IMG/VR virus record: IMGVR_UViG_3300025154_000355
Location: 1-25,774 of that record
Reading direction: 5' to 3' (one strand)
DNA length: 25,774 nt
Origin: a virus
In this document: one piece after another, positions 3,899 to 25,215 of the stretch
How positions within the stretch are numbered: the first letter of the stretch is position 1
How the letters are laid out: every line of letters starts with the position of its first letter
The notes under the pieces: generated by a model
Told to the model about the DNA's origin: nothing
Seen by the model: the letters and a program-made list of their open reading frames with translations, nothing else
The model's database searches: none
Program-made: the position numbers and the translations under genes

Positions 3899-4519
3899 TT
3901 ACCTCCCCATCGCGATCATAGAGGTTGCAATCGTCCCCCAACTGTTTTGAACAATACAACTCCCTGCCGCTTTACTTTTAATTGTTGCCACAATCCCTGA
4001 TGCGGCTGATCCATCCTGTACCGTCGCTACTACCGCATAAGTTGAAGAAGAAGCAAATTGTCCTGCTGAAGGAAACGTCCAAGTAGTACCCGTGTTTGTC
4101 GTATTTAATATGTTAAAAATAATATTTAAGTTGGTGTAAGGTCCTTGATTGTTGAAAGGAAACAACCCGTCCTCAATCTCGTTTATCCCAACGCAATCGT
4201 TTTGTAATTGTGGTTGAGCAATACAGTTGTCCGCTAATTTGTCCACCGTAACGGCGTCGTTCGCGATCTCGGCCGTTCCTACGGCGTTCGTGGCTATTTC
4301 GTCGGCTCCTACCGCTCCGGCCGCAATCTTATCGGCTGTTATGGCGTTGTTTGCGATCTGCGCGGTCCCTACCGCATTGTCGGCAATATGTCTTGCTATA
4401 ATCGCGTCATCGTCAATATTTGTCCCGTCCTTAAACCCGGCGTCGTTTGAACCTAAGTAGTTCCATTTTGTAGCGCTCGGTTGTTCTCCATAAACAAAAT
4501 CAATTGCATTGTAAGACAT
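3899..4519 (-). CDS. Short tail fibre or appendage with decapeptide-like repeats
   Basis: 206 residues, ATG at 4519 with GGGGAGG upstream; it overlaps the gene before by 20 bases. Residues about 36-110 hold seven or more imperfect repeats of the form A-x-x-I-A-x-x-A-V-G/T (IADNAVGTAQIANNA, ITADKIAAGAVG, ADEIATNAVG), a pattern seen in trimeric phage tail fibres. The C-terminal 80 residues are Ser/Thr/Ala-rich and predicted beta (WTFPSAGQFASSSTYAVVATV). Its place after the tail hub gene suggests a receptor-binding or baseplate accessory protein. The assignment rests on repeat pattern and order. Confidence 0.7.
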   Translation of the reverse strand: MSYNAIDFVYGEQPSATKWNYLGSNDAGFKDGTNIDDDAIIARHIADNAVGTAQIANNAITADKIAAGAVGADEIATNAVGTAEIANDAVTVDKLADNCIAQPQLQNDCVGINEIEDGLFPFNNQGPYTNLNIIFNILNTTNTGTTWTFPSAGQFASSSTYAVVATVQDGSAASGIVATIKSKAAGSCIVQNSWGTIATSMIAMGR

Positions 4520-4962: not shown

Positions 4963-6990
4963 TTAACTAATAGATGAGATTGTTCTCTTTACAATCGTTA
5001 ATTCTTGCGTAAAACCTTCCGAAGCCGTAATCTTTGATTTTATTCTTATAACGAAGTAGTTATCCGTTCCGCGTGTTACCAAATCCCCCAACTGTAATTG
5101 CGGTAATCCTCTAATCGTAATTATCTTATAATTGCCCGGCTCTTTTCTGTTTAACAATATCGAACTGGCGATTGATTTCATTGTCGCGTAACTTTGAATA
5201 TAATCGTTTTCAATCGTAACCACGTGTTCGTCGTAATCCGTAACGCTTGTTGCGTCCTCCTCTCGCAAATAAAGTCCTTGCTCCAAAATCTTTTCGGCCG
5301 GCTTTCCGAATACATTCATAGCCGTTAAATATCCCGTGAGCGTCGCGTGGTTGTTTCGTATAACTAATTTCGTCGCCTTGCTAAAGTTCGTCCATTCCGT
5401 AATTTCAAAATCGCTCGTCAAATTTGTACCGCTTCCGTCCGTAGCCGTGTTCGCCGTGAAGTTACTTTGTCCGCCTCCGGCCGTCGGTTCTATGTTGCTA
5501 AAAATCGGATCTTCATAATTTATAAATAATTCGTAAGTTGCGCCGGGCGCGATCGCTTCGCTTGCCGCCGGTAATGTCCAAATTTGTTTATCGTCCGCTA
5601 CTACGGCGCGCGGTGTGGCTTTGATCTCCACAACGTTGATAATCTTGTCTATGTTTTGATTTTCTTCTTTTAATATAATTGCGTCTGTAATAGTTAATAC
5701 CGAAGCCGTGTGCGGCGCGTTTAGCAAATGCAATCTATTCTCAAATCTAAATATCCCGTTTTCGTCAACGTAAAACGTGGCCTGCTCGGCTTGGCAAATC
5801 TTTGCAATTATATCTCCAACCTTCTGTCCGGCCTCAAAAAAACAAAAAGGTATAGTTATAAGCCCTTGATCTAAAATGTATTGTCCGGTTGTGAGTCCGA
5901 CGGTTTGTAAAAGTATGTCGATCAATTCGTCGCTTCGCTTGTCTTGGTAAAGTTGCGTTCTTTCCACCGGGTAACCCCAAAGCGCCTCCGTAAAGTCGAT
6001 CGCGTGAATTGTGCAAGTGTTTTCCTTTTGGTCGATTTTCGGCGTTTCAATAATCATTCCAACAAACTGCTGTATTCTGTTTGAAATTCCGTTGTAATTG
6101 AACCCTGCGCTCGCTCTAATCGGCCTCCTGCTTTTTATGTCCCAAGTAATTTCGTTAACTCCGACTTGTTCATAAACGTAAAAACAAACGTCTTGAGTTG
6201 CTTCGCCTCCCCACGCTCCCCAACCGTAATAACTGTAATTCCCATCGTGACTTGGGCTTGAAGTGTCTAACCCAACCGAAAGACAATTTGAAGCGTTTCC
6301 GCCGGTGTATTCAATCGCAACCGCGTATATCGTACCGGCTGTTAATTCCAATCTTTGTTCGCCCGTAAAATTAAATACTTTTAATTCGCCTGAAGTTTCA
6401 AGAGTGCTAATGTCAATTGTTTCCGAAGTTGCCAATGCTGTCCCGGTCGGGCAAGCGTCCACCCCATTTGTTCCGGTTTTAGCGTAAATTTTGGCCGTAA
6501 TGTTTCCTGTTGGGCTTCCGGTCTTTTTAATGTAAAAAGCAACCCGGTCTAAAACTCCTCCCAATGCTTCGAAGGTCTGTGCGTATCCCGTAACGTTCCC
6601 AGAGTAAGCGTTCCAAAACTCATTCGCATTTGCTTCTGCGTAACTGTCCGATAGTTCGTCCGTAAAATTAAGCGGCAAAAATCTATCCGAATTGTTGTCT
6701 AAAATAACGTCGCAAACCGATCTCGCAACACTAAAAACCGGCTCATCAAAATAACGGTCATATTCCATACTCATAAGGTATTCTGTTTCGTCTATGTAAT
6801 CGTAATTATCGCTTTCCGGCACAACGTTGTCCTCGCCCTTAATAACGTCGCCTCCGCCGATTGTGGAGGTCCCTATCGTGAACCAATCGTGGCCTTCGTA
6901 GTTTCTTAACCAACTAACTCCCAACCCGGCGACCGGCCGCCTGATCTTGGCCTTGCTTGCGGTGTCAAATTCTTCTGTTACTGTTTGCAC
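4963..6990 (-). CDS. Tail hub/tail-tip protein with inserted beta-sandwich domain
   Basis: 675 residues from GTG 6990, GGAGG 6 bases upstream. The outer parts look like a siphovirus tail hub: DVILDNNSDRFLPL (residues 94-107), then RRPIRASAGF (288-297), QFVGMIIETPKID (308-320), and a long beta-rich C-terminal half ending in a QLGDLVTRG segment (about 630-640). Between the first two, residues about 120-276 form an insert: AQTFEALGGVLDRVAFYIKK and YAVAIEYTGG fit the choice-of-anchor R type beta domain found on surface and carbohydrate-binding proteins. The insert may bind the host surface. The place after the distal tail gene supports the call. Confidence 0.8.
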   Translation of the reverse strand: MQTVTEEFDTASKAKIRRPVAGLGVSWLRNYEGHDWFTIGTSTIGGGDVIKGEDNVVPESDNYDYIDETEYLMSMEYDRYFDEPVFSVARSVCDVILDNNSDRFLPLNFTDELSDSYAEANANEFWNAYSGNVTGYAQTFEALGGVLDRVAFYIKKTGSPTGNITAKIYAKTGTNGVDACPTGTALATSETIDISTLETSGELKVFNFTGEQRLELTAGTIYAVAIEYTGGNASNCLSVGLDTSSPSHDGNYSYYGWGAWGGEATQDVCFYVYEQVGVNEITWDIKSRRPIRASAGFNYNGISNRIQQFVGMIIETPKIDQKENTCTIHAIDFTEALWGYPVERTQLYQDKRSDELIDILLQTVGLTTGQYILDQGLITIPFCFFEAGQKVGDIIAKICQAEQATFYVDENGIFRFENRLHLLNAPHTASVLTITDAIILKEENQNIDKIINVVEIKATPRAVVADDKQIWTLPAASEAIAPGATYELFINYEDPIFSNIEPTAGGGQSNFTANTATDGSGTNLTSDFEITEWTNFSKATKLVIRNNHATLTGYLTAMNVFGKPAEKILEQGLYLREEDATSVTDYDEHVVTIENDYIQSYATMKSIASSILLNRKEPGNYKIITIRGLPQLQLGDLVTRGTDNYFVIRIKSKITASEGFTQELTIVKRTISSIS

Positions 6991-6991
6991 C

Positions 6992-7342
6992 TCAAACCTC
7001 CGTAAAGTTTATTTTTACGTTTCTGTAATTGTAATGGTTGGCAAAATTAAAATTCATTTCCGGCATTGAAATAATAACTCCGGCGCTAAATGTAAAATCG
7101 TCGTCGCTAATCGTCAATATTTTAGCCGTGCCGTTGTCGCGCTGATCTTCGTACTCGGCTCTAATAACCTCATAATCCTCCGCGCTAATCGGCGTATATT
7201 CGCATTCAAAAATCTTTTTTTCGCTTCCCACAAAGTCCCGGCTGAATCCTCCGTCGAGCGTCCGGTGCACAACGGCTACAACGTCGTTTTTAATAACTTT
7301 TCTTTGTGGTGTTGGTATTTGGTTTCCGTCTAAAATCCACAT
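6992..7342 (-). CDS. Probable distal tail-type protein
   Basis: 116 residues, ATG at 7342 behind GGAGG. The sequence is all-beta in appearance, with short strands such as KNDVVAVVHRT, KIFECEYTPIS and YRNVKINFTEV. It lies exactly between tape measure and tail hub, where siphoviruses encode the distal tail (Dit) protein or a minor tail protein that joins tube and hub. It is shorter than most Dit proteins (over 200 residues), so it may be only the N-terminal, tube-like domain. Assigned mainly by order. Confidence 0.6.
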   Translation of the reverse strand: MWILDGNQIPTPQRKVIKNDVVAVVHRTLDGGFSRDFVGSEKKIFECEYTPISAEDYEVIRAEYEDQRDNGTAKILTISDDDFTFSAGVIISMPEMNFNFANHYNYRNVKINFTEV

Positions 7343-7343
7343 A

Positions 7344-9419
7344 TTATATTCCTCCTTTTGCTCTGTCTTGCCTTGACTGTTCTTGACTAACCTTTTCTAC
7401 GAAGGTAGAGAAGTCCTGTGGCGTCCCCAACATCTCTCCAATGTGGAAATGGTTCTCGGTCCTGCCTCCGCCGGCCGAGTTGATCTCCGGCGCTTTCATA
7501 GGCGCTGTGGCGGCCATTTGTAACTCCGGTCTGATCCCTCCGGTCATATCCGTAATACCGCTAAACATATCTTGGTACTGTCCAATGATCTGTGCCGTGC
7601 CGGCCTTAATATTGTCAACCAAACTCGGCGACTCTCTGTGAAACGGGTTGATCTTTTCCAATGCTTCTTTAACGCCTCCTACCTTGCCCTTAATCCATTC
7701 AAAAGCGTTTCTAAATGGTGTCGTAACCGCGTCGTAAACTCCTCCCAACGCTCCAACTAATCTACTCGGCAAGTCCCTAAACCAATCTACAATCCCGTTT
7801 ACAATGTCCGGTATAATCGAATGTCCTATTAAATTATCGTAAAGATTTTTGAAAAATCCAAAAATCCCTTCTACCAAACTTTTAACCGATCCGTAAACCG
7901 CGTTATAAAGTCCCGAAAATATGCTAATTATTCCGTTCTTCATTTTCTCAACCGACGCTCTAACTAATTCCGTGTTGCCCGTAAAAAGTCCGTAAATCAT
8001 TCCCCACCAACCTGAAATGAACTGCCAAAGTCCGCTAAAGAATTGAACAACGCCTGTAACGAAAGTTGCTACAAATTTTAATACGCCGGTCAAAATCCCG
8101 ATCAGTATTACAAACGACGCGATCCCTGCCATAATCGATCCGACTATAACTACGCCTATAATCGTCGCAATCAACTTGAAAAGCGGCCAAAGCGCAATAA
8201 GCGCCGGCTTAAGTTGGTCATTCCATAGTGGCAATAATTGTTCTTTGAGCGTCTGTATAAGCGCTTGGAATGCGCCTTTCAATAATTCTATAATCGGTTT
8301 CATAGCATTTATATAAGGTTGTAATCTTTCCATAATTCCTTGCCAACCTCCAAAATGGTTCAATAGTAATTGAACAATCGCGCCTAATGCCGCTCCTGCC
8401 GCTATAAACGGTAGTAATGGCGCCAACGCCGCCCAAACTCCTGCGGCCGCCGCCCAAGCCGCTCCGGCCCAAGCAACAAACGCCGGTATAAGCGCTCCTA
8501 CTATAATTCCAATAACGATCGGTAAATTGTTCTTCATAATTTCCGTAAAGTTCTTAATCCCTTCAATAATCTTTGGCAAGTTCTCGTCCAAAAACTTAAT
8601 GAAAATCCCGAGTGCTTTTTTGGCCAAGTCAAAGATCCCAGTTTGCTTAACAAACTCCGCTCCGGCAATAGAAAGATTGTCCTTCATATTGCTCCAAAGT
8701 TGGTTAAACGTTCCGGCTTGATCTCTAAAAGCGTTCTCAAAACGTCCTCCGGCCATTCCGGCGTCATTGAACATTTTCTCCAACATTTCAAAAGTAACTC
8801 CGCCGTCTGTGATAAAGTCACTCAACGCTTCGCCCGTCTTGCCCGTTGCTTGTGAAAGCATTTCAAAAATCGGTATGCCTGCAAAGGCAAACTGTTTTAC
8901 GTCCATCATAGCGGCTTTTCCTACCGCTCCAACCTGTTGTAAGTTAACGATAATTCTGTCGAGTTCCGGCTGTCCTTTTCCCATAGCCGCTAACGCCTTC
9001 CCAACGTTTAATAACATTTTTTCTGATCGTCCGGCGTCCTTTGTAACGGAAGTCAATAATTGGTTTGCTTGTACAAGTCCTGCCATTTCGAAAGGCGTTG
9101 TGGTGGCGTCCTTCTTAATCATTTGCAACGCTTCGTCTGCCTTCTCCGCTGATCCCAAAAGCGTAATAAATCCCGATCTCATAGTTTCCAAACTGGCGGC
9201 TGATTTAATTCCTGCAATCGAAATAGCGGTAAGTGCCGCGCCGGCAATCGCCAACCCGGCCGCAAATGCCTTGCTTCCGGCTTCCGCGCTTTTTAACATT
9301 CCCGTCAAGCCCTTAAACTTGCCGTCCGCTTTGTCCAGCCCACTATCAAACTTTTTGCTATCTAAATCGAGAGCATAATGTATTTTTCCTATTTCTGTTG
9401 ATCCTGCTATGTCGGCCAC
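7344..9419 (-). CDS. Tail tape measure protein
   Basis: 691 residues, GTG at 9419 with AGGAGG upstream. The N-terminal 250 residues carry the usual tape measure signature: SAASLETMRSGFITLLGS, then TTPFEMAGLVQANQ and the QFAFAGIPIFEMLSQATGKT segment. Two long hydrophobic stretches follow (about residues 298-352 and 410-470), which may enter the host membrane during DNA injection. The C-terminus is polar and ends RQDRAKGGI. The protein sets tail length and is filled into the tube by the tail chaperones encoded just upstream. Its size suggests a tail of moderate length. Confidence 0.9.
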   Translation of the reverse strand: MADIAGSTEIGKIHYALDLDSKKFDSGLDKADGKFKGLTGMLKSAEAGSKAFAAGLAIAGAALTAISIAGIKSAASLETMRSGFITLLGSAEKADEALQMIKKDATTTPFEMAGLVQANQLLTSVTKDAGRSEKMLLNVGKALAAMGKGQPELDRIIVNLQQVGAVGKAAMMDVKQFAFAGIPIFEMLSQATGKTGEALSDFITDGGVTFEMLEKMFNDAGMAGGRFENAFRDQAGTFNQLWSNMKDNLSIAGAEFVKQTGIFDLAKKALGIFIKFLDENLPKIIEGIKNFTEIMKNNLPIVIGIIVGALIPAFVAWAGAAWAAAAGVWAALAPLLPFIAAGAALGAIVQLLLNHFGGWQGIMERLQPYINAMKPIIELLKGAFQALIQTLKEQLLPLWNDQLKPALIALWPLFKLIATIIGVVIVGSIMAGIASFVILIGILTGVLKFVATFVTGVVQFFSGLWQFISGWWGMIYGLFTGNTELVRASVEKMKNGIISIFSGLYNAVYGSVKSLVEGIFGFFKNLYDNLIGHSIIPDIVNGIVDWFRDLPSRLVGALGGVYDAVTTPFRNAFEWIKGKVGGVKEALEKINPFHRESPSLVDNIKAGTAQIIGQYQDMFSGITDMTGGIRPELQMAATAPMKAPEINSAGGGRTENHFHIGEMLGTPQDFSTFVEKVSQEQSRQDRAKGGI

Positions 9420-9420
9420 T

Positions 9421-9711
9421 TTATCCTCCTAATAAACCCTTTAATTTATCTACGCCACTTTTCTTGTTGTCCGGGCGGTTGATTAAAAACCTTTCAATCG
9501 GATCTTCGCTAAAGTTCTCAAACTGTTTCATTATTCGTTCGTATTCGCCTTTTTTAGCATTTGGCAAAACAGCGATCAATGCTTGTTCCCGACGTTCGGC
9601 CGCGTCCAATTTAACGGATTGGCTGACTAAGGAATAAAATCTGATCGCGTATTCGTCCATAAGTGATTGGAATGTATAGCCCGGAAACTTTCGTAGAAAA
9701 TATGTTACCAA
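9421..9711 (-). CDS. Tail assembly chaperone, downstream (T) part made by frameshift
   Basis: 96 residues if counted from TTG 9711, but this codon has no ribosome binding site. The frame is open upstream back to a stop near 9771, across the A9 run at 9726-9734, in the +1 (equal to -2) frame of the gene before it. The best reading is that it is made as a fusion to the upstream chaperone, as in lambda G/GT. Helical, hydrophilic sequence (MDEYAIRFYSLVSQSV, EYERIMKQFENF). In such systems this part contacts the tape measure, whose gene follows at once. Confidence 0.75.
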   Translation of the reverse strand: MVTYFLRKFPGYTFQSLMDEYAIRFYSLVSQSVKLDAAERREQALIAVLPNAKKGEYERIMKQFENFSEDPIERFLINRPDNKKSGVDKLKGLLGG

Positions 9712-9712
9712 C

Positions 9713-10087
9713 CTAAGCAGTCGGATTTTTTTTTCCTTCTTCGTTTCCGTCGCCTGTAAGTTCTATGCCTTCCGCTTTCAACGCTTGTCCGTCCTTCGGT
9801 TGCGACATTTCAAAAACAAATTTTATTAGCGCGCCCATTTGCTCAAACGTCAAATCGACGTCTGGTTCTTTTAACGCCGGTACGATTGGGAGTAGCAATT
9901 CTGTGAGTTCGGCAAATGCCTTGCTCTTATCTTCGTCCGCCTCTGCCTTGCTCATTCTCTCAAAAATTGCCAAGAGTTTAACAATGGTTTTTAACTTCGG
10001 CGGGTAAATCTCAATTGCTTTGCCTCCCAATTGTGCGTATTCCGGTTTGGGCGCATAAACGTCAAGGTCTAACTTGATGTCGTTCAT
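9713..10087 (-). CDS. Tail assembly chaperone, upstream (G) part
   Basis: 124 residues, ATG at 10087 behind AAAAGGA. A beta N-terminus (IEIYPPKLKTIVKLLAIF) leads into helices (LTELLLPIVPALKE, FEQMGALIKFVFEM) and a charged tail ending EEGKKNPTA. Position between major tail protein and tape measure, size, and helical content fit the G-type chaperone that coats the tape measure during tail assembly. The last codons contain a nine-A run where ribosomes can shift into the next frame. Confidence 0.75.
   Translation of the reverse strand: MNDIKLDLDVYAPKPEYAQLGGKAIEIYPPKLKTIVKLLAIFERMSKAEADEDKSKAFAELTELLLPIVPALKEPDVDLTFEQMGALIKFVFEMSQPKDGQALKAEGIELTGDGNEEGKKNPTA
9726..9734 (-). promoter_or_regulatory. 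A9 slip site for programmed frameshift
   Basis: Nine A residues in a row on the minus strand, read as GGA AAA AAA AAT in the upstream frame. The downstream chaperone frame is +1 (or -2) relative to this. Both frames are open across the site: the upstream frame stops at 9715-9713, the downstream frame stays open from about 9768. Typical for G/GT tail chaperones, although most use -1. Confidence 0.65.
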
Positions 10088-10103
10088 TTTGTCCTTTTAT
10101 TTT

Positions 10104-10628
10104 TTAACTAATGCTATCAACGCCAATGTGGCCAAGTCGGTTTCCTTCGCTCTTTGTTTCGTCAATAAGCGCTTGGAATGTAACCTCTAAAACTCTTTGC
10201 TCGTCCACTTTATAATTGGTTTCTACCGCTTCAACTGCAACGGCCTTGTAAATAACCACGTCTTCGCTCAAGTCACTGGCTTCGTTGGCAATCGGGTGAA
10301 GTCTTAATAAGTGTGCTTCGTTGTCTAATTCGTAACCACAATTTCGGCCGATCTCAAGTCTGCTACCTTCCGCACCGGTTTCGTGGCTTGCACCAGGTAA
10401 AGCAACTTTCATATTGGCTAATGTCTGTTCTGCTAAAGAAAGTTTCATTTGCAAATTCTCGCCGATTAAAACCTTGTTAATCGGGCTTGACCCGTATTGG
10501 TCAACTGTAACGTCGGCAATGTCCGGCTCATAACTAAAACTAACGCCGTCTTTGGTGTGGCCCAAATCCACGCCGTTAAAAACCACTTGGCAAACCCCGA
10601 TTTTTACGTTCGCAATGTTCCCTGTCAT
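10104..10628 (-). CDS. Major tail (tube) protein
   Basis: 174 residues, ATG at 10628 behind TAGGAGG. N-terminal MTGNIANVKIGVCQVVFNG and HTKDGVSFSYEPDIADVTVDQYG show the pattern of tail-tube proteins that contain a beta sandwich; VEVTFQAL-like strands end it (RVLEVTFQALIDE). It lies just before the two tail chaperones and after the tail terminator, the usual place of the tube protein in siphoviruses. It would polymerise in hexameric rings around the tape measure. Confidence 0.8.
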   Translation of the reverse strand: MTGNIANVKIGVCQVVFNGVDLGHTKDGVSFSYEPDIADVTVDQYGSSPINKVLIGENLQMKLSLAEQTLANMKVALPGASHETGAEGSRLEIGRNCGYELDNEAHLLRLHPIANEASDLSEDVVIYKAVAVEAVETNYKVDEQRVLEVTFQALIDETKSEGNRLGHIGVDSIS

Positions 10629-15331: not shown

Positions 15332-16186
15332 TTAAGTCAATCCGTTTCTCGACTTAACTGATGCGATGGCTAATCCGTTAATTGTTTTTATTGAACTCTT
15401 TGCTAACCCGTTTATAGATTTAATTGCTGAGGAGATGTAAGTATAAGTAATTACTACTATTCCTGCTCCACCATAGTTAGTACCAGCACCATTTTGAGAT
15501 CCACCTCCCCCGTAGTTTCCACCATTAAATAATCCGCCTGCTCCACCGCCCGAACCGTGAGTAGTCCATTCTGTACCGTCTAACCCTGCTGAATTGCTAC
15601 CGCCATTACCACCACCGTTCGCACCTACGCCCGCAGTTCCAGGAACAGTCGTGCCCGCACCACCTGCTGTTCCGCCGTCTGCACCACCACCTCCACCGTG
15701 ATATACGCCAGAAGTGCTTCCGTTTCCGCCTGCACCGCCTGCACCGTGAGCACCTGCCGCTCCGCCACCTCCACCAGTACCTTTACCACCTATACCACCA
15801 CCAGTTCCACCTGCACCGCCTGAGTACGCACCAGTTGTCGGAGTACAAGCCGCCGCCGCTCCGCCTGCCGCACCAGTTCTTAAAGTAGCAGTTACTCCAC
15901 CTTTAGCGATAACATCAGCACCATAAGAGGTATCTCCACCGTCAGCGGTACTTGCTCCGCCTCCTGCACCGATAGTAACAACTACATTTGTCCCATCCGT
16001 AACGGCAGGATTAATAGCATACGCTCCGCCGCCACCTCCACCATTTCCAGGAGGAGCAGAATACTTTCCACCGCCACCGCCGCCGATGGCTTCAACTGTA
16101 AAAGCATTGCCGTCCCAAGCAAATTCTCCAGTAGTTGGCAATGAATATGTCTGTGATGAAGTTAAAATTACTGTTTTTGTTGCCAT
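15332..16186 (-). CDS. Glycine-rich fibre/decoration protein
   Basis: 284 residues, ATG at 16186 behind AAGGATAA. Residues 1-35 form a beta start (VILTSSQTYSLPTTGEFAWDG), followed by about 200 residues that are extremely rich in glycine (GGGGG, GAGGGAST, GNGGGGGG), as in phage fibres with glycine-rich domains that form polyglycine-II-like bundles. Three copies of an NGLA-type repeat end it (IKSINGLAKSS, IKTINGLAIAS, VKSRNGLT). It follows the collagen-like fibre and probably forms part of the same surface structure. Confidence 0.75.
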   Translation of the reverse strand: MATKTVILTSSQTYSLPTTGEFAWDGNAFTVEAIGGGGGGKYSAPPGNGGGGGGAYAINPAVTDGTNVVVTIGAGGGASTADGGDTSYGADVIAKGGVTATLRTGAAGGAAAACTPTTGAYSGGAGGTGGGIGGKGTGGGGGAAGAHGAGGAGGNGSTSGVYHGGGGGADGGTAGGAGTTVPGTAGVGANGGGNGGSNSAGLDGTEWTTHGSGGGAGGLFNGGNYGGGGSQNGAGTNYGGAGIVVITYTYISSAIKSINGLAKSSIKTINGLAIASVKSRNGLT

Positions 16187-16195
16187 TTATTATCC

Positions 16196-18331
16196 TTAAA
16201 TATGAGTCATATAATCAGGCGAAGGATTAAACATCAATTCGTCGGCTGTGTTTCCAAATCCTACTATCCTGATCGCGGCGTCTGTCGTCGTCGGCTGTGC
16301 AACAACAATATCTCCGGCCGTTTCGCTAATGTAAGCCGGTGCGCCTATTGTCAGCGTCGGAAATACCGCGTCCGCTCTGACTTTTCCATACAAAAGCATT
16401 TCAGTCGCGTTTCCGTCCGCTCCGGCCGCTAATACGCATATTCCTAATTTTTTGTTATACCCGTCGCTTAAATTGGCGTCCACTAATTCCCAACGGCTGT
16501 CCTCGTTATTAAAATAACAAAGATCTCCAAACGCCAATGCCGCTCCTGCCGTCCCCGCTTCCGTGATCCCGCAATATTTCCCGTCGGCGCTTAATGCGCT
16601 GTCTAATGCTAACGCCGTGTTTTCCCCAAATGTAATATCGCCTGTAAGCGTTCCGCCTGCAAAAGTCATATAAAGCGTATCGAAATATAATTTTAATTTG
16701 GCCTTGATGTTCGCCCAAGATATTTTCTTTAATAAATAAGTATCCGCGCTGTCAGATAATCCGAACTCGTCTGCGTCTACCGGCGTGTCTTTTTCTAATA
16801 CGCCGTGAATTGACGCCGCTACGTCCGCGCTTGTTCCGGCTTCGCCTTGTATACCCTGAATACCCTGTATTCCCTGCTCACCTTGAATACCTTGCGCGCC
16901 CTGTGGACCCGCTTCGCCTTGAATACCTTGCGCGCCTTGTGGTCCCGTATCTCCTGTTGGTCCTTGAATACCTTGCGCTCCACTCAAATCGTTTGTATAT
17001 GCGTAAATTGATCCGTTCCATAAATAAAGTTTTGAATTGTCCGCGTCGTTTGGATCTACTGTCGTAACAATCGCAAACTCTCCCGATATTATTCCCGTCG
17101 GGCTTGTATCCGCCTCTAATTCCGCAACGCTTGCGTAAATCTTTGCAATATTAAAACCCTGTCCCGTTGCACCTTGTATTCCTTGTTGGCCTTCTGGTCC
17201 TTCTGGTCCTTGCGGTCCTTGCGGTCCGGTTGATCCTTGCGGCCCGGTTGCTCCGGTTGGTCCTTGAACTCCTTGAATACCTTGCGGTCCGGTTGATCCT
17301 TGCGGTCCTTGTAATCCGGTCGCGCCCTGTGGCCCAGTTTCTCCAATTGGTCCTTGTGGCCCGGGTACTGTTGAATCTGCGCCTGCCGGTCCTTCTGGTC
17401 CAGTTAAGCCTTGCGCTCCTGCCGGTCCTGTTGGCCCTGTTGCTCCAGTTGGTCCTTCTTCTCCTAATATGCTTCCTCTAAATTCAATTCGGTCCGTATA
17501 TAGCGCGGCTGTTTTATTTATTATTTCGAAAGTATTGTCATCATTGTTTACTATAAAATCGCCTACTTGCGATTCGCTCCCCATAACGTAAGTTTCCATT
17601 TCTCCGGCTTCAGCAACAAACACCCTCTGCCCGTCTGCGCCGGTTGCTCCAGTTGCACCCTGTGGACCTGTTGCTCCGGTTTCTCCTATTTCGCCCTGAA
17701 TGCCTTGCGGTCCTTGAATACCCTGAACCCCCTGCGCGCCTTGTGGTCCTATTGCACCAGTTGCTCCAGTTGCGCCTGCCGGTCCTTGTGATCCTGTCGG
17801 GCCTTGCTCTCCCTGCGGGCCTTCCGGTCCCGTAATTCCTTGTGCGCCTGATAAATCGCTCTGAAAAGCGTATGCCGTCCCTGTCCAAATGTAAAGTCGT
17901 GAATTGTCCGGATCGTCCACGTCATCTGTAACAATCAACGCAAATTCTCCGGCGTCAATTCCGGTTGGTGTCGTGTCGGCTAATAGCGCCGCGACTGTGC
18001 TATAATATTTAGCAATATAGAATCCCAATCCCTCTGGGCCTTCTGGGCCTTGAACCCCCTGTGGTCCTGTCGGTCCAACTGAACCCTCCGGGCCTTGTGG
18101 TCCTGTTGCTCCTTGTATTCCTTGCTCTCCTTGCGGACCTTGTGCGCCGGTTGGTCCTTGTATTCCCGTTTCTCCCGTGTCACCTTTTTCGCCTTGTGGT
18201 CCCTGAGGTCCGGTTTCGCCGGCCGGGCCTGTTAATTGTTCAATAATATTAAAAGTAACGTTGATCGTTTCGCCTTCCGTAATAACAACGTCTATTGTTT
18301 CGTCCGATATAACTACGTTTGTATCTTCCAT
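16196..18331 (-). CDS. Collagen-like fibre protein
   Basis: 711 residues, ATG at 18331 directly after the previous stop, AAGGA 9 bases upstream. Four collagen-like G-x-y blocks (residues about 35-102, 162-234, 293-391, 451-499) are broken by beta-like spacers. The spacers at 103-161 and 392-450 are copies of each other ([19 protein letters not shown] against [19 protein letters not shown]); the one at 235-292 differs. The C-terminal 150 residues ([31 protein letters not shown]) form a beta domain of a type found at fibre and decoration tips, ending in [11 protein letters not shown]. Such proteins are trimers on the virion surface. Confidence 0.85.
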
Positions 18332-20700: not shown

Positions 20701-22068
20701 TTATATTATAGCGAAGTCGTCGGCTGTAAACGTTTGTCCTCCGTCCGTAAATGTAAGCATTAATGCGTCCGCAATATCCGGGCTTTCCACCCCTCTTTTT
20801 TGTAACTCGTCCTTTGGCTCAATTTGGAATTTGCTACTGCTATTCGGCTTAAATCGTATTTCGAGTAATTGATACCAATCCGCGCTATCGCTTAATTTTC
20901 CGCTTTGGTTTTCTATCCAATCTTTTACTAAAAAGTAATTTTCTGCCTTCAAGTTTGCGTAACTTGCTCCGTCTGTTGCGCCTTGTCCTTCTTTTACACC
21001 GTTAACTTCGTGTCCCAGTTCTCTCAATCGGTCCGTAACTCCTCCGCCTACTCCCACATCGTCAACGTAAATATTATTGGCTTCAATCTTATATTCTTTC
21101 ATATAGTTAATAATTCGTCCCGGCTGGCTCATCAAATCGGGATCACGGTTCTTCTCTAATATTATAGCACAGTTGTCGCCTCTTAACACATAAGCCGAAT
21201 AGTTCCCTCCTCGTCCGATGTCAACCCCAAGTCTTAACGTGCCGGCCGGTACAATGTCTTTAATCATTATTTCCTGCATTTGTTTTTCAAAAAACATTCG
21301 CCTCCACCCTCGTTCGTCCACTTCGTCTTCCATAGGAAATTTGCATTCATAAAGCACGTCGAAAAGCGGTCTTTTCTTTGCCTCGTCAATAAATTGTTGT
21401 GTATATCGTCCTTCGGCCAATGCTTGTATGTAGTCAATAACAATCGTTTTCCAATTGTCGTCAAAAGATGTTTTGTAAAAATGATTTCGATAAAACGGGT
21501 TTCCGATCTTTACATATAACGGATCTTTCTTCCCGGCGATCATACGGAAGATCGTCGCTTCCGTCCTGTCCGGTATCAATCCCGACTCGTCCTCTAATAT
21601 AACGTCTGCGCCTTCTCCCATAGCCGCCTCAATTGATTTTTGCGCGTTCCCGGCTTGCGCCGATATACAATAAACTCCTCCGCCATTGCGTAAAATTATT
21701 CTGTCTTTGCTTTCCTCTTGGCGCAACCTTTCCAGTTTCGTGTTCTTTTCCAATTGGCTATAAAACATTATATCGTCGCCCAAGTGTTCTACATAATATC
21801 TCATAATCAATTTGGCCTTCGCGTCTGTTGGCGCAACAATAGCAACCATTTTTCCAATAACGCAACTTAAAATAAGCGCCGCGAGCGCTAATGTTAAACT
21901 TTTCCCGTATTGAGTGCAAGTAATAACTTCAACAAAAGGATATACCCGAAATACTATATCTTCGAATATCTCTAACTGTCCTTCCGTCAATTTGTCTGAC
22001 GCCGGCGCTCCGTCAACTTTGAATAGTTTCAGAAGGTTCAGCGTCTTTTGCCTTCTCGTCATCTTCAT
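20701..22068 (-). CDS. terL: Terminase large subunit
   Basis: 455 residues, ATG at 22068 with AAAGGAA upstream. The ATPase part has a Walker A-like CTQYGKS (51-57), a Walker B DVILEDE (155-161), and the coupling segment VKIGNPF (187-192). The nuclease part has Asp283 in LGVDIGRGG, Asp336/Asp337 in NIYVDDVG and Asp431/Asp434 in SPDIADAL, as in RNase H-like terminase nucleases. The protein drives DNA into the head and cuts it. Its start lies 56 bases inside the end of the gene before. Confidence 0.95.
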   Translation of the reverse strand: MKMTRRQKTLNLLKLFKVDGAPASDKLTEGQLEIFEDIVFRVYPFVEVITCTQYGKSLTLALAALILSCVIGKMVAIVAPTDAKAKLIMRYYVEHLGDDIMFYSQLEKNTKLERLRQEESKDRIILRNGGGVYCISAQAGNAQKSIEAAMGEGADVILEDESGLIPDRTEATIFRMIAGKKDPLYVKIGNPFYRNHFYKTSFDDNWKTIVIDYIQALAEGRYTQQFIDEAKKRPLFDVLYECKFPMEDEVDERGWRRMFFEKQMQEIMIKDIVPAGTLRLGVDIGRGGNYSAYVLRGDNCAIILEKNRDPDLMSQPGRIINYMKEYKIEANNIYVDDVGVGGGVTDRLRELGHEVNGVKEGQGATDGASYANLKAENYFLVKDWIENQSGKLSDSADWYQLLEIRFKPNSSSKFQIEPKDELQKRGVESPDIADALMLTFTDGGQTFTADDFAII

Positions 22069-22540
22069 TTATTAGTTCCTTTAGTTTTTCTCTCATATCC
22101 GCAACCTCTTTATTTTCCGTTACTTCTACCGGTTGCTTTGCCTTGCCGAGCGCTCTGTCTAAAATCGCTTCTGCGGCCGCCAAGCGTGTCCCGGCCGGAT
22201 ATTTCTTGCCGAGTAATACGCTCTGCGTTTGTAATGCGACGTCTACTGTTTTGTTTAGTTCTGTTACCGCCGATATAATCGACTCGCTTCCTAAAATTTC
22301 ATTTAATAAATCAATAGCCGGGCGCAATCTTCCGTTATATTGGAATATCTGTCTATAATACACCTCCTCGTGATCGTGCGCCGGAAACTCCGTCTTAATG
22401 TTGTAAACAATATCCTTGTATGGGTATCCTTGTGATCGCATTTCTACTGCTCTTCTCTCCCAATTCTGTAATTCCATCGTATTGTATTGTTCATATTTAT
22501 TAGCGAGGTCTGCTTTCAGTTGCTTAATTCTATCTTCCAT
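22013..22540 (-). CDS. Probable terminase small subunit
   Basis: 175 residues, ATG at 22540 with GGAG upstream; it starts inside the end of the glycosyltransferase gene. Helical throughout. Residues 1-75 hold a charged coiled coil, then a likely helix-turn-helix segment (MRSQGYPYKDIVYNIKTEF). The C-terminal segment ALQTQSVLLGKK, LAAAEAILDRALGKAKQPVEV is common in small terminase-like proteins that precede a large terminase. It would recognise the packaging start on the phage DNA. Named by pattern and by overlap with terL. Confidence 0.7.
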   Translation of the reverse strand: MEDRIKQLKADLANKYEQYNTMELQNWERRAVEMRSQGYPYKDIVYNIKTEFPAHDHEEVYYRQIFQYNGRLRPAIDLLNEILGSESIISAVTELNKTVDVALQTQSVLLGKKYPAGTRLAAAEAILDRALGKAKQPVEVTENKEVADMREKLKELINEDDEKAKDAEPSETIQS

Positions 22541-23315
22541 ACTCCACCACCTTTTTCCAATTTATTTTTACTTCTGTTAAATCGTGATTTTTATTGTAAA
22601 TCTTTTGCGCAATTTCGTTTCCCCATTTCCTCGTCATAATCTCTGCGGCGGCCTCGTGCTTTCCGCGTCTTTGCTCAGCCGTACCGCAACCGCCTGTTTC
22701 CTTGCTCATTGTCTTGCAATCAAACGCCCAATAATAGAAACTAATGTTTTTATATCCTTTGTTTAGAATTTCCAATGTGATATTGTAATCTTCAAATATG
22801 TTTAATTTCGGATCGTATTCAATTCCTGCTTGCCGATACGTTTTGTTGTTGTGCGCTTCAAAACACCAAGCCCGTGTATTTTCTTTACTAACTCCATTAT
22901 ACAACCAATTGCTTTTGCCGTAACTTATCGTGGCCTGCAAATAATCCGGGTGGTTTAATAAGAATTTCTCAATATACTTGAACATTCCCTTTATTTCCGC
23001 CGGTGTCATTTTCGTTAATCCGAAATACTGTTTTGGCCTCATAGCGCCGGCTCTTTTTTTGAATGCCGTTATGTCGTCGTCCAAAAAGAAAATAATCTCG
23101 TCGCCCAAATAATCATTAGCGTATTGCCGGCTGTATGCAATTCCTTTGTCGTTTTCTCCTATGTTGACGATCGTGGCAACCTTGCTATATTTTTGATATT
23201 TTTCCCAATCTTGCGGCTCAACAAATAAATAAATGTCTTTTGGAAATATCTTATAAATCTGCTTGAGCGTATATTGCCTATCCGGCCTGCCTTTTGTGCA
23301 AATCGCAATTTTCAT
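22530..23315 (-). CDS. GT-A glycosyltransferase, TET-associated (TAGT) type
   Basis: 261 residues, ATG at 23315 overlapping the previous stop (ATGA), AAGG upstream. N-terminal MKIAICTKGRPDRQYTLKQI, then GIAYSRQYANDYLGDEIIFF and the metal-binding LDDD (residues 78-81), then FEDYNITLEILNKGYKN (174-190) and a GGCG loop near 208-211. This order fits GT-A enzymes, especially the TET-associated glycosyltransferases that phages use to add sugars to modified DNA bases. No TET/JBP gene is in the window. The target could be DNA or a protein; the place next to terminase and radical SAM genes favours DNA. Family call by eye. Confidence 0.65.
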   Translation of the reverse strand: MKIAICTKGRPDRQYTLKQIYKIFPKDIYLFVEPQDWEKYQKYSKVATIVNIGENDKGIAYSRQYANDYLGDEIIFFLDDDITAFKKRAGAMRPKQYFGLTKMTPAEIKGMFKYIEKFLLNHPDYLQATISYGKSNWLYNGVSKENTRAWCFEAHNNKTYRQAGIEYDPKLNIFEDYNITLEILNKGYKNISFYYWAFDCKTMSKETGGCGTAEQRRGKHEAAAEIMTRKWGNEIAQKIYNKNHDLTEVKINWKKVVEYGR

Positions 23316-24574
23316 ATGTTCGCCTTTTTGTAATCAAAAGCATAAACCGCGTCGCCTTTTTCGTCTTTTCCTATCTTGTAAATTACTCCCTCAAAATAAT
23401 CCTGAAAATAACTGCCGTTCCATTGCTTAATAAAATAATCTTGATACGTCATATCTCGTCTTTTGTGGCGCTGGCTTCCGCTTCCTAAGTTCATATACTG
23501 CTCTACTTTCGAATTTACTCTCCAGTCCTTTTCCGTTTCGTCTAAATATTCCATTGCTTCCGTAAACGTCATTATGCCCTTTTCCTTGATTTTGTGAATT
23601 AGGTTGCTCATTTGGAATTTGGCGTAATCTTTGAAGTATTCGTTCGTGTCGAGCAATCCGCAACAACTGCCTCCGCAACTCTTGTCTTTGTGCTTGGCGT
23701 CGCTTATAAAGTACGGCAATCCTACTGCCTTGCATTCGTCCATATACCTTTTTACGTATGGCTTCAGAAAATTATAGTCCAACCGTACGTATCCGCTTCC
23801 CGTTCCGTATCGCTTATAAAACTTTAGTAAACTCATATCCGCCGCTTGGCTGATCCTTTTGTAATTTTCCAGCGTTTCGTTTCGTCCAAATCCGCGTGTA
23901 TCTAAGCAAAAAAACTCGGTCGTAATGCTTTGGCAACCGATCTCCTTTGCTGTCTTTATCATTTCGCTCATTGTTTTGTCGGTTACTCCTATAATAAACG
24001 GCCTCATTCTCCAAGTTGTGAGCGTCCCGGCCTCCTCGTGCAATCGTTTGAGTACCTCTACCCTGCGCTGTGGCGTCGGCGTGCCGCGCTCCACCAATTG
24101 CCAGTCCTCCTCGTCCAGTGTGATTATGCTTGCCTTGTAATGCCACCTGTTTCCGGCTTTCTTAAATTCGTTTAGATATCGTTCGTCCGTGATCGCCAAA
24201 TCGCCTTTGCTACTAAAACTTATCGGCTGTTCAATGTCATTAAAAAACTTCAGTAATTCCAATCCGACTCCGTACTGTTTTTCCAATGGACAAAATGGAT
24301 CGCTTAATCCTCCCCATTGTATCGGCCTCTTGGCTTCTATCCATTTCCACATCGGCGTTTTGATCTGTCCGGTGAATATCTTTTTTACTCTGTCTACGTT
24401 GACGGCTTTTACCTTCTTAGCGTCATAATCCTTGCAGGCCGGGCCTGTACCTCTAATGTATTGACTAAAACAATACGCGCAATTATGCCCGCAATTGCTA
24501 TAACTGTCGAATGTAATCGGCATTGAGCAGTCGCAAAACTCGCTCGTAATTCTTGGCGAGCCGTAGTAATCCAT
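23312..24574 (-). CDS. Radical SAM enzyme, spore-photoproduct-lyase-like
   Basis: 420 residues, ATG at 24574 overlapping the previous stop (TAATG). Cys28, Cys32 and Cys35 (NCGHNCAYCFSQY) are the radical SAM 4Fe-4S ligands. WGGLSDPF (87-94) matches the GG-type SAM-binding strand of the SplB-like group. The middle part (KASIITLDEEDWQLVERG, RVEVLKRLHEEAG) also fits that group. A second cysteine cluster, C300-x3-C304-C305 (SCGGSCCG), may hold another Fe-S centre. Reaction unknown. Its place in one coupled unit with a ParB-fold protein and a glycosyltransferase suggests DNA base modification. Confidence 0.85.
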   Translation of the reverse strand: MDYYGSPRITSEFCDCSMPITFDSYSNCGHNCAYCFSQYIRGTGPACKDYDAKKVKAVNVDRVKKIFTGQIKTPMWKWIEAKRPIQWGGLSDPFCPLEKQYGVGLELLKFFNDIEQPISFSSKGDLAITDERYLNEFKKAGNRWHYKASIITLDEEDWQLVERGTPTPQRRVEVLKRLHEEAGTLTTWRMRPFIIGVTDKTMSEMIKTAKEIGCQSITTEFFCLDTRGFGRNETLENYKRISQAADMSLLKFYKRYGTGSGYVRLDYNFLKPYVKRYMDECKAVGLPYFISDAKHKDKSCGGSCCGLLDTNEYFKDYAKFQMSNLIHKIKEKGIMTFTEAMEYLDETEKDWRVNSKVEQYMNLGSGSQRHKRRDMTYQDYFIKQWNGSYFQDYFEGVIYKIGKDEKGDAVYAFDYKKANI

Positions 24575-25215
24575 TATTCGCCTTCTTTTTTGGCTTCCGT
24601 CGAGTCAACAAAATTCATCAATTTATTCGTGTCGAGTTCTCCGCTTCGCGTAGTGGCAAAATGGCTCTTGACCTTATGCCATTGTTCCATATTCGCCAGG
24701 TAAAATGCCACCTTGTCGCTTCTGATCGGCGCGCCGGGTTGTTCTACTCCCACGGCTACTTTTTCGTTTCGGTCAAAAATCTTCTGTATTTCCTCGTCGT
24801 CGTCAACGCTGTATCCTTCGCTTTGTTCTAAATTGATCTCTTTTCTCATAAGCGCTTGGCTGATCTCCGCTTCGCTAAAACCTATGGCTTCGCTTTCCAA
24901 TTCTGCCAAAACATTTGCCAATTTTTCTTCATTAAAATAGCCGCTGATTTTGTTCAACGCTAAGTTTAGTACCTTTTCCTGTTTTTTGTCTAAATCCAAT
25001 ACTATACACGGCACTTCGGCGATCCCTAATTGCTTGGCCGCCTCCAACCTCTGATGTCCGCCAATTATAGTCATATCGCTGTTAACTACAATTCCTTCAA
25101 CCAATCCAAATTGCTGTATGCTTTTTTTAAGTTCCTCTAAATCGCTTGTGCTAATCTCGCGCGGGTTGTAATCCGCCGGTTTGAGTTCGCTGACGTTTAT
25201 AGTTCTGTTTTCCAA
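24574..25215 (-). CDS. ParB N-terminal-domain protein
   Basis: 213 residues, starting at TTG 25215 behind an excellent CAGGAGG site. Residues 5-90 match the ParB/Srx-like fold: INVSELKPADYNPREIS, then LKKSIQQFGLVEGIVV and the GGHQRLEAAKQLG motif (52-64) that binds and hydrolyses nucleotides in this family. The C-terminal half (90-213) is helical and charged, with no ParB helix-turn-helix that I can see. In phages, stand-alone ParB-fold proteins are often next to methylase or other modification genes. The stop overlaps the radical SAM start, which supports a common job. Confidence 0.8.
   Translation of the reverse strand: MENRTINVSELKPADYNPREISTSDLEELKKSIQQFGLVEGIVVNSDMTIIGGHQRLEAAKQLGIAEVPCIVLDLDKKQEKVLNLALNKISGYFNEEKLANVLAELESEAIGFSEAEISQALMRKEINLEQSEGYSVDDDEEIQKIFDRNEKVAVGVEQPGAPIRSDKVAFYLANMEQWHKVKSHFATTRSGELDTNKLMNFVDSTEAKKEGE

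Follow-up and report, generated by a model that had tools for sequence, protein, structure and literature searches.

Results

The ParB-like, radical SAM, and glycosyltransferase genes

The window examined here is the whole of the IMG/VR virus record IMGVR_UViG_3300025154_000355, 25,774 bp in length, which is complete as a record yet represents only part of a phage genome. Its minus strand carries genes for a ParB-like protein, a radical S-adenosylmethionine (SAM) enzyme (rSAM), a glycosyltransferase (GT), a small-terminase-like protein (TerS), and the large terminase (TerL), in that order (Table 1). An earlier reading made from the sequence without database searches had described three enzymes with overlapping ends that run into the terminase genes, and the arrangement is as described: the ParB-like and rSAM genes overlap by 1 bp (TAATG), the rSAM and GT genes by 4 bp (ATGA), and the GT and TerS genes by 11 bp.

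The GT, which the sequence-only reading had placed in the TET-associated group, does fall there by sequence and not among the polysaccharide families, being above the cut-off of the Pfam TAGT family PF20691 (4.5e-11, 43.5 bits against a cut-off of 27.5) and matching PHROGs phrog_842 (3.6e-27). A polysaccharide GT was set aside as its identity, with PF20691 scoring far better than Glycos_transf_2. Besides D79 and D80 of the DDD motif, a downstream acidic residue, D176, is conserved. The AlphaFold2 model, with a predicted local distance difference test (pLDDT) score of 89.1, has a GT-A fold, and a fold search cannot separate the GT-A subfamilies, nor DNA from sugar or protein acceptors. The protein is most probably a TAGT-type GT, and we propose that it adds a sugar to a modified base. 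It shares the PF20691/phrog_842 family and the DxD motif with the TAGT of T-even phages, the beta-glucosyl-HMC-alpha-glucosyltransferase, which differs in its substrate, glucosyl-5-hydroxymethylcytosine, and is about 23% identical to the window GT.

The ParB-like protein is above the Pfam cut-off for ParB_N (7.9e-12) and matches PHROGs phrog_620 (9e-44). Partition ParB was rejected as its identity at the full-family cut-off of TIGR00180 (42.2 against 58.45 bits), and we classify it, from these matches, as a ParB-fold protein that is not filed as partition ParB. Its nearest phage homologues (44–50% identity) are the N-terminal domains of phage DNA methyltransferases, and PADLOC groups it with Type II methyltransferases (5.6e-25). 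This homology to methyltransferase domains suggests a DNA-handling part common to different DNA-modifying enzymes, and we propose the protein as a DNA-targeting or nucleotide-binding partner of the two enzymes.

The rSAM is similar to rSAMs of the PA0069/Rv2578c type. Its score against Pfam Radical_SAM PF04055 (1.3e-5, 25.8 bits) is under the curated cut-off of 29.5, which is a database threshold and not a defining feature, and both the rSAM motif and the fold are present. The extra CxxxCC reported in the earlier reading is indeed found at residues 300–305, but C300 is not invariant over 71 homologues, and the conserved set is instead C16, C223, C304, and C305, with C223 invariant only within the long rSAM subfamily described below. 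These four residues might bind a second cluster, and C16 is a possible auxiliary-cluster ligand or catalytic cysteine. The AlphaFold2 model built from the 71 sequences (pLDDT 94.6, predicted template modeling score 0.92) matches many rSAM structures and contains the partial TIM barrel, as judged by Foldseek and VIA-align. Its best VIA-align match is spore photoproduct lyase (SPL; Z 19.8, rmsd 3.0 Å over 258 residues, with the next family at 16.4), although SPL is not among the best 50 Foldseek matches for the same model. SPL is itself an rSAM enzyme whose target in DNA is thymine, in the form of a thymine photoproduct, but the window protein differs from it in a longer C-terminal part with the invariant CC pair, in its phage operon, in that no repair role is expected, and in sequence, where similarity was undetectable in the searches made. 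A viperin-like defense enzyme was tentatively set aside after the PADLOC viperin models gave no match, although Foldseek ranks viperin first (E 7e-6). We propose the rSAM, with its predicted SPL-like fold, as a putative thymine-methyl functionalizing enzyme.

Conservation of the unit and exchange of its partner

Scans with the single window proteins (rSAM, GT, and TerL) found no close relatives; these came when alignments served as queries against viral contigs and the genomes of bacteria and archaea, a search that gathered 112 loci, the window included, of a long (about 420-aa) rSAM subfamily termed rSAM-A. Among the 66 loci whose flanks both reach 3.5 kb or more, 64 have a ParB-like gene in the orientation of rSAM-A and no further than 4 kb from it. 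The nearest relatives (L168–L171 and L173, with rSAMs 51–68% identical) have the order ParB-rSAM-TAGT as in the window, with both junctions reproduced in L168 and L169 (−1/−4 bp) and the rSAM/TAGT junction of −4 bp in L170 and L173. Trio homologues occurring apart from each other were looked for, and that is not how they are found.

Partner genes, detected by local profiles, are divided between two types: TAGT is present in 43 of the 112 loci, a 5-hydroxymethyldeoxyuridine (5-hmdU)-kinase-like gene and/or an amino acid:DNA transferase (ADDT) gene in 50, both types in one, and neither in 18. A thinned set of 81 rSAM-A sequences gives 33 with TAGT, 37 with kinase/ADDT, 10 with neither, and one with both, and a quick tree of these 81 requires at least 21 changes between the TAGT and kinase/ADDT states, a number that is approximate. 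In "neither" loci of the window's own clade (L166, L167, L172, and L110/L174) a GT-B gene fills the partner slot, and in two further "neither" loci, L206 and L214, which are 98% identical and represent one lineage, TAGT and rSAM are fused into a 698-aa protein; L198 may be the reverse fusion, its TAGT part being weak (E 0.0057). As a control, 69 loci with other SPL-like rSAMs contained TAGT twice and neither kinase nor ADDT (0/69 for each). ADDT is above the Pfam cut-off in G005, G010, and L125, and the kinase of L014 is related to PhiW-14 gp37, while those of L077, L014, and L010 are related to M6 gp54.

Several other genes accompany these loci. A MetK-like, short S-adenosylmethionine synthetase homologue lies near rSAM-A in about 31 of them (e.g., L086 8167–8961, L118 9278–10084, and L188 6243–7097), as if SAM supply were limiting. 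The L016/G007 phage (41,684 bp), in which TGA is not a stop but a sense codon, probably for Gly in the manner of Absconditabacteria-type codes, carries MetK-like, ParB, kinase-like, rSAM-A, possibly ADDT-like, second rSAM (rSAM-B), and ParB genes. In Bacteroides fragilis S82 (L125 2274–4833) the genes ParB-ADDT-kinase-rSAM-A-terminase are accompanied by those for a C5-cytosine methylase and for a protein with an ASCH domain, which is a proposed modified-base reader, and in L046 (1957–6249) genes resembling those of the 7-deazaguanine pathway (QueD, QueE, and FolE by eye) lie between ParB-like and rSAM-B genes. A second modification-like cassette, TAGT-free and reminiscent of that of phage M6, is seen in gut and rumen phages (L023, L024, L026, L028, and L037, around 6800–10350), where one or two ParB genes, a short SPL-like rSAM (~340 aa), and either a pyridoxal phosphate (PLP) enzyme (PF00291) or an S-adenosylmethionine synthetase precede the terminase.

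Absence of a recognized first-step enzyme

TAGT and 5-hmdU kinase/ADDT enzymes use hydroxymethyl-pyrimidines in other phages (PMC6449724, PMC13216743, PMC13390438), and reference phages with the same partners encode a hydroxymethylase of the thymidylate synthase (TS) type (MW202897, LuckyBarnes, M6, and LysYB1) or a TET enzyme (P12024L). The TS-type hydroxymethylase PF00303 was found in 0/45 rSAM-A records (1.84 Mb), with detection in 4/4 controls, and Tet_JBP likewise in none of the 45 (the window and 44 others), with its positive controls detected. The earlier reading had seen no TET/JBP or hydroxymethylase gene in the window, an absence that means little by itself because the window record is a genome fragment, and it now extends to these 45 records, several of them complete. 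A TET or hydroxymethylase gene located elsewhere in the phage was set aside on the strength of its absence from the 45 records.

With terminal repeats of 99–127 bp, G035 (123 bp), G040, G042, G052, and G064 are treated as complete, and G006 and G062, with repeats of 26 and 25 bp, may be complete as well. G035 (40,427 bp) belongs to the phage lineage of the window, its TerL being 48% and its portal protein 29% identical, and of the 45 proteins scanned from it with Pfam, one is a radical SAM protein and none a pyrimidine enzyme. G037 (35.7 kb, carrying L169), which like G035 has a related cassette, places ParB-rSAM-TAGT beside the terminase genes, TerS being preceded by two small ORFs, and its TerL is 47% identical to that of the window; the small-terminase-like protein of the window is 31–32% identical to the equivalent in G035 and G037. 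The G037 record begins in a protease gene and finishes in a capsid gene, and because these genes adjoin each other in the window phage, G037 seems to be short of only a small junction. Gene scans of G035 and the near-complete G037 gave no other first-step candidate. C5-cytosine methylases were found in 3/45 rSAM-A records, and with that enzyme so rare, thymine is the only base that generally bears a C5-methyl group; 5-methylcytosine as a general substrate was set aside on this count.

Comparison with known systems

The Gordonia phage MakoManhole encodes ParB (gp1), Tet_JBP (gp2; 5.7e-4, under the Pfam cut-off), ADDT (gp3), a P-loop kinase (gp4), and gp5, followed by the terminase, and its ParB, ADDT, and kinase match profiles built from rSAM-A loci. 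The Rhodococcus phage Tonitrus similarly has ParB, TET-like, aGPT-Pplase2, and 5-hmU DNA kinase genes (PMC11955845). This actinophage operon resembles the window in having ParB first, overlapping genes, and modification enzymes directly before the terminase, and it has ADDT and kinase in common with the window's sister loci too, but it contains a TET/JBP dioxygenase where the window has the rSAM, and in the window TAGT replaces ADDT and kinase. The layout being the same with TET/JBP in these aerobic actinophages, rSAM-A occupies the slot of TET. Oxidation of a pyrimidine methyl group within DNA is known from the TET/JBP enzymes, which require O2. The hosts of rSAM-A, assigned through genome bins, in which single-contig binning can err, include the isolates Bacteroides fragilis S82 and Selenomonas ruminantium S137 as well as Prevotella, Phocaeicola, Lachnospiraceae, Clostridia, and others, lineages that are anaerobes.

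In the Nonlabens phage P12024L cluster (TET-TAGT-methyltransferase), TAGT also stands beside a first-step base-modifying enzyme, although that enzyme is TET, a methyltransferase is present, and neither rSAM nor ParB is adjacent. The base J pathway of kinetoplastids, which is eukaryotic and O2-dependent, consists of a JBP hydroxylase and a glucosyltransferase and, like the pathway proposed for the window, functionalizes the thymine methyl in DNA and adds the sugar second. An rSAM in thymidine hypermodification is already known from M6-like phages, alongside a hydroxymethylase (PMC9476957). The 5-(2-aminoethyl)deoxyuridine (5-NedU) cassette of Pseudomonas phage M6 has an rSAM remotely related to that of the window, a kinase as in window relatives, and a PLP enzyme as in other loci, but it differs in its TS-type hydroxymethylase, PLP enzyme, kinase, and aGPT-PPlases, and in being without TAGT.

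Further features of the window and of G035

The structural region of the window encodes a collagen-like GPQG-repeat protein (16196–18331) and a glycine-rich protein (15332–16186), likely virion fibre or surface proteins, and a likely tail protein contains tandem "AVGTAEIANNAI"-type repeats (3899–4519). In G035 (21161–23369), SAM methyltransferase and family 2 glycosyltransferase genes lie amid the structural region, possibly for virion or surface decoration.

Table 1. Genes and sequence motifs of the cassette and adjoining terminase genes in the window (A2, A3, and A5, sets of homologues)
Feature	Position	Strand	Remarks
ParB-like gene	24574..25215	-	213 aa, TTG start, AGGAGG ribosome site
rSAM gene	23312..24574	-	420 aa
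GT gene, putative TAGT type, GT-A	22530..23315	-	261 aa
Small-terminase-like gene	22013..22540	-	PHROGs phrog_2538, weak, 0.0047
Large terminase gene	20701..22068	-	PHROGs phrog_2, 4.4e-21
rSAM [4Fe-4S] motif C28-x3-C32-x2-C35 (CxxxCxxC)	24470..24493	-	invariant in 71/71 homologues
rSAM Cys16	24527..24529	-	71/71 in A5; 14/14 in A3, shorter relatives included
rSAM Cys223	23906..23908	-	71/71 in A5; the shorter relatives have K or F
rSAM Cys304-Cys305 pair	23660..23665	-	71/71 in A5; 14/14 in A3
GT DDD (DxD) motif, residues 79–81	23073..23081	-	D80 invariant in 33 TAGT homologues; D79 and D80 invariant in A2

Discussion

The rSAM-A loci combine genes in conserved linkage, partners from a few families, a predicted rSAM fold, and the absence of TS-type hydroxymethylase and TET from the relatives, and the trio of the window is very probably a phage DNA-hypermodification cassette. 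From this material we infer that the substrate is DNA and the base thymine, that the reaction is a hydroxylation and the added group a sugar, and what role the ParB-like protein has. In the mechanism that we propose, the ParB-like protein would keep the enzymes on phage DNA or direct them to it, and the SPL-like rSAM would abstract a hydrogen from the C5-methyl of thymine in that DNA without O2, giving 5-hydroxymethyluracil or an equivalent functional group, to which TAGT would add a sugar, with a nucleotide sugar as the donor. The resulting base-J-like glycosylated thymine would shield the phage DNA from host nucleases, and since the trio genes precede the terminase, the modification may be finished before packaging. 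It is probable that rSAM-A performs the first step, as an O2-independent functionalization of the thymine methyl, while the narrower claim that its reaction is strictly a hydroxylation is put forward tentatively. The suggestion of the sequence-only reading that the rSAM supplies the chemistry in place of TET or a hydroxymethylase gains support, as an interpretation, from the interchange of partners, the absence of both enzymes from the 45 records, the TAGT-rSAM fusion, and the SPL-like fold. Overall, a ParB-rSAM-TAGT cassette in which the rSAM acts first and glycosylation follows is the explanation that we favor, with fair confidence.

An alternative within DNA hypermodification is that the rSAM acts late, tailoring a group already on the base, with the 5-hydroxymethyl-pyrimidine coming from an unrecognized hydroxymethylase or from the host. 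The precedent is phage M6, whose rSAM has been proposed to rearrange or tailor such a group and is remotely related to the rSAM-A family. Its thymidine-hypermodification cassette contains PLP enzyme, rSAM, kinase, and ADDT-type genes (PMC9476957). We nevertheless regard this as unlikely, in that M6 encodes its own TS-type hydroxymethylase, which is absent in 45/45 rSAM-A records, M6 gp53 is closer by BLAST to rSAM-B than to rSAM-A, and an enzyme that tailors amino acid adducts late should not show equal linkage to TAGT where ADDT is missing. The rSAM might also functionalize the thymine methyl otherwise, for example by forming a C-N, C-S, or C-C bond, and provide that group to the GT or kinase. 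The SPL-like fold and the invariant C16, C223, C304, and C305 fit several rSAM chemistries, yet elsewhere hydroxymethyl-pyrimidines are known substrates of TAGT and also of 5-hmdU kinase with ADDT, which leaves this option rather improbable.

A role of the rSAM in DNA repair, as an enzyme of SPL or related type, with the GT as a separate gene, would agree with SPL as the best structural match, but the fixed linkage, the TAGT-rSAM fusion, the occurrence in phages whose hosts, such as Bacteroides, do not form spores, and the lack of any sequence match to solved SPL at E 10 make it very improbable. We give equally little credence to a modification of the virion surface, a cell-surface polysaccharide, or a peptide by the GT and rSAM: the GT-A fold is common to many polysaccharide and protein GTs, but the sequence family is TAGT, whose characterized members glycosylate DNA bases, and TAGT is interchanged with DNA kinase and ADDT modules.

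A number of observations count against the explanation that we favor, a first-step rSAM followed by glycosylation. The hydroxylation of a methyl group by an rSAM would be unusual chemistry, and the hydroxymethyl-pyrimidine may instead come from a hydroxymethylase unrelated to TS or from the host. Some relatives have rSAM-B in addition to rSAM-A. Of the rSAM-A records searched, only L014/G005 has a kinase-like gene that passes the Pfam cut-off for HMUDK, with G001 just under it, so that some of the kinase-like partners are, by Pfam, only P-loop kinases. Foldseek ranks viperin first for the rSAM model, with a marginal E of 7e-6, and profile searches of PDB sequences tie the rSAM to no solved structure, solved SPL included at E 10; because the sequence searches miss SPL and the top Foldseek matches are marginal, the support that SPL provides is one of fold.

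The cassette had been suspected to be undescribed. For the combination this holds in the literature searched, whose coverage is incomplete and leaves priority uncertain: we found no description of ParB-rSAM-TAGT, of its exchange with kinase/ADDT, or of the accompanying absence of TS-type hydroxymethylase and TET. The participation of an rSAM in phage base hypermodification, on the other hand, is already known from M6. Somewhat speculatively, the rSAM could be an anaerobic replacement for TET/JBP, hydroxylating the thymine methyl in DNA without O2 and feeding interchangeable TAGT, GT-B, or 5-hmdU kinase/ADDT modules in numerous phages whose hosts are anaerobic bacteria of the gut, the rumen, and elsewhere. 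An rSAM that oxidizes the thymine methyl without O2 would, if true, be a new enzyme activity and a possible tool for labeling thymine in DNA, and isolates with related prophage-like loci make the hypothesis directly testable. It would also explain hypermodified DNA in phages of anaerobes that have no hydroxymethylase, and many unannotated ParB and rSAM genes next to terminase genes would then belong to anti-restriction biology.

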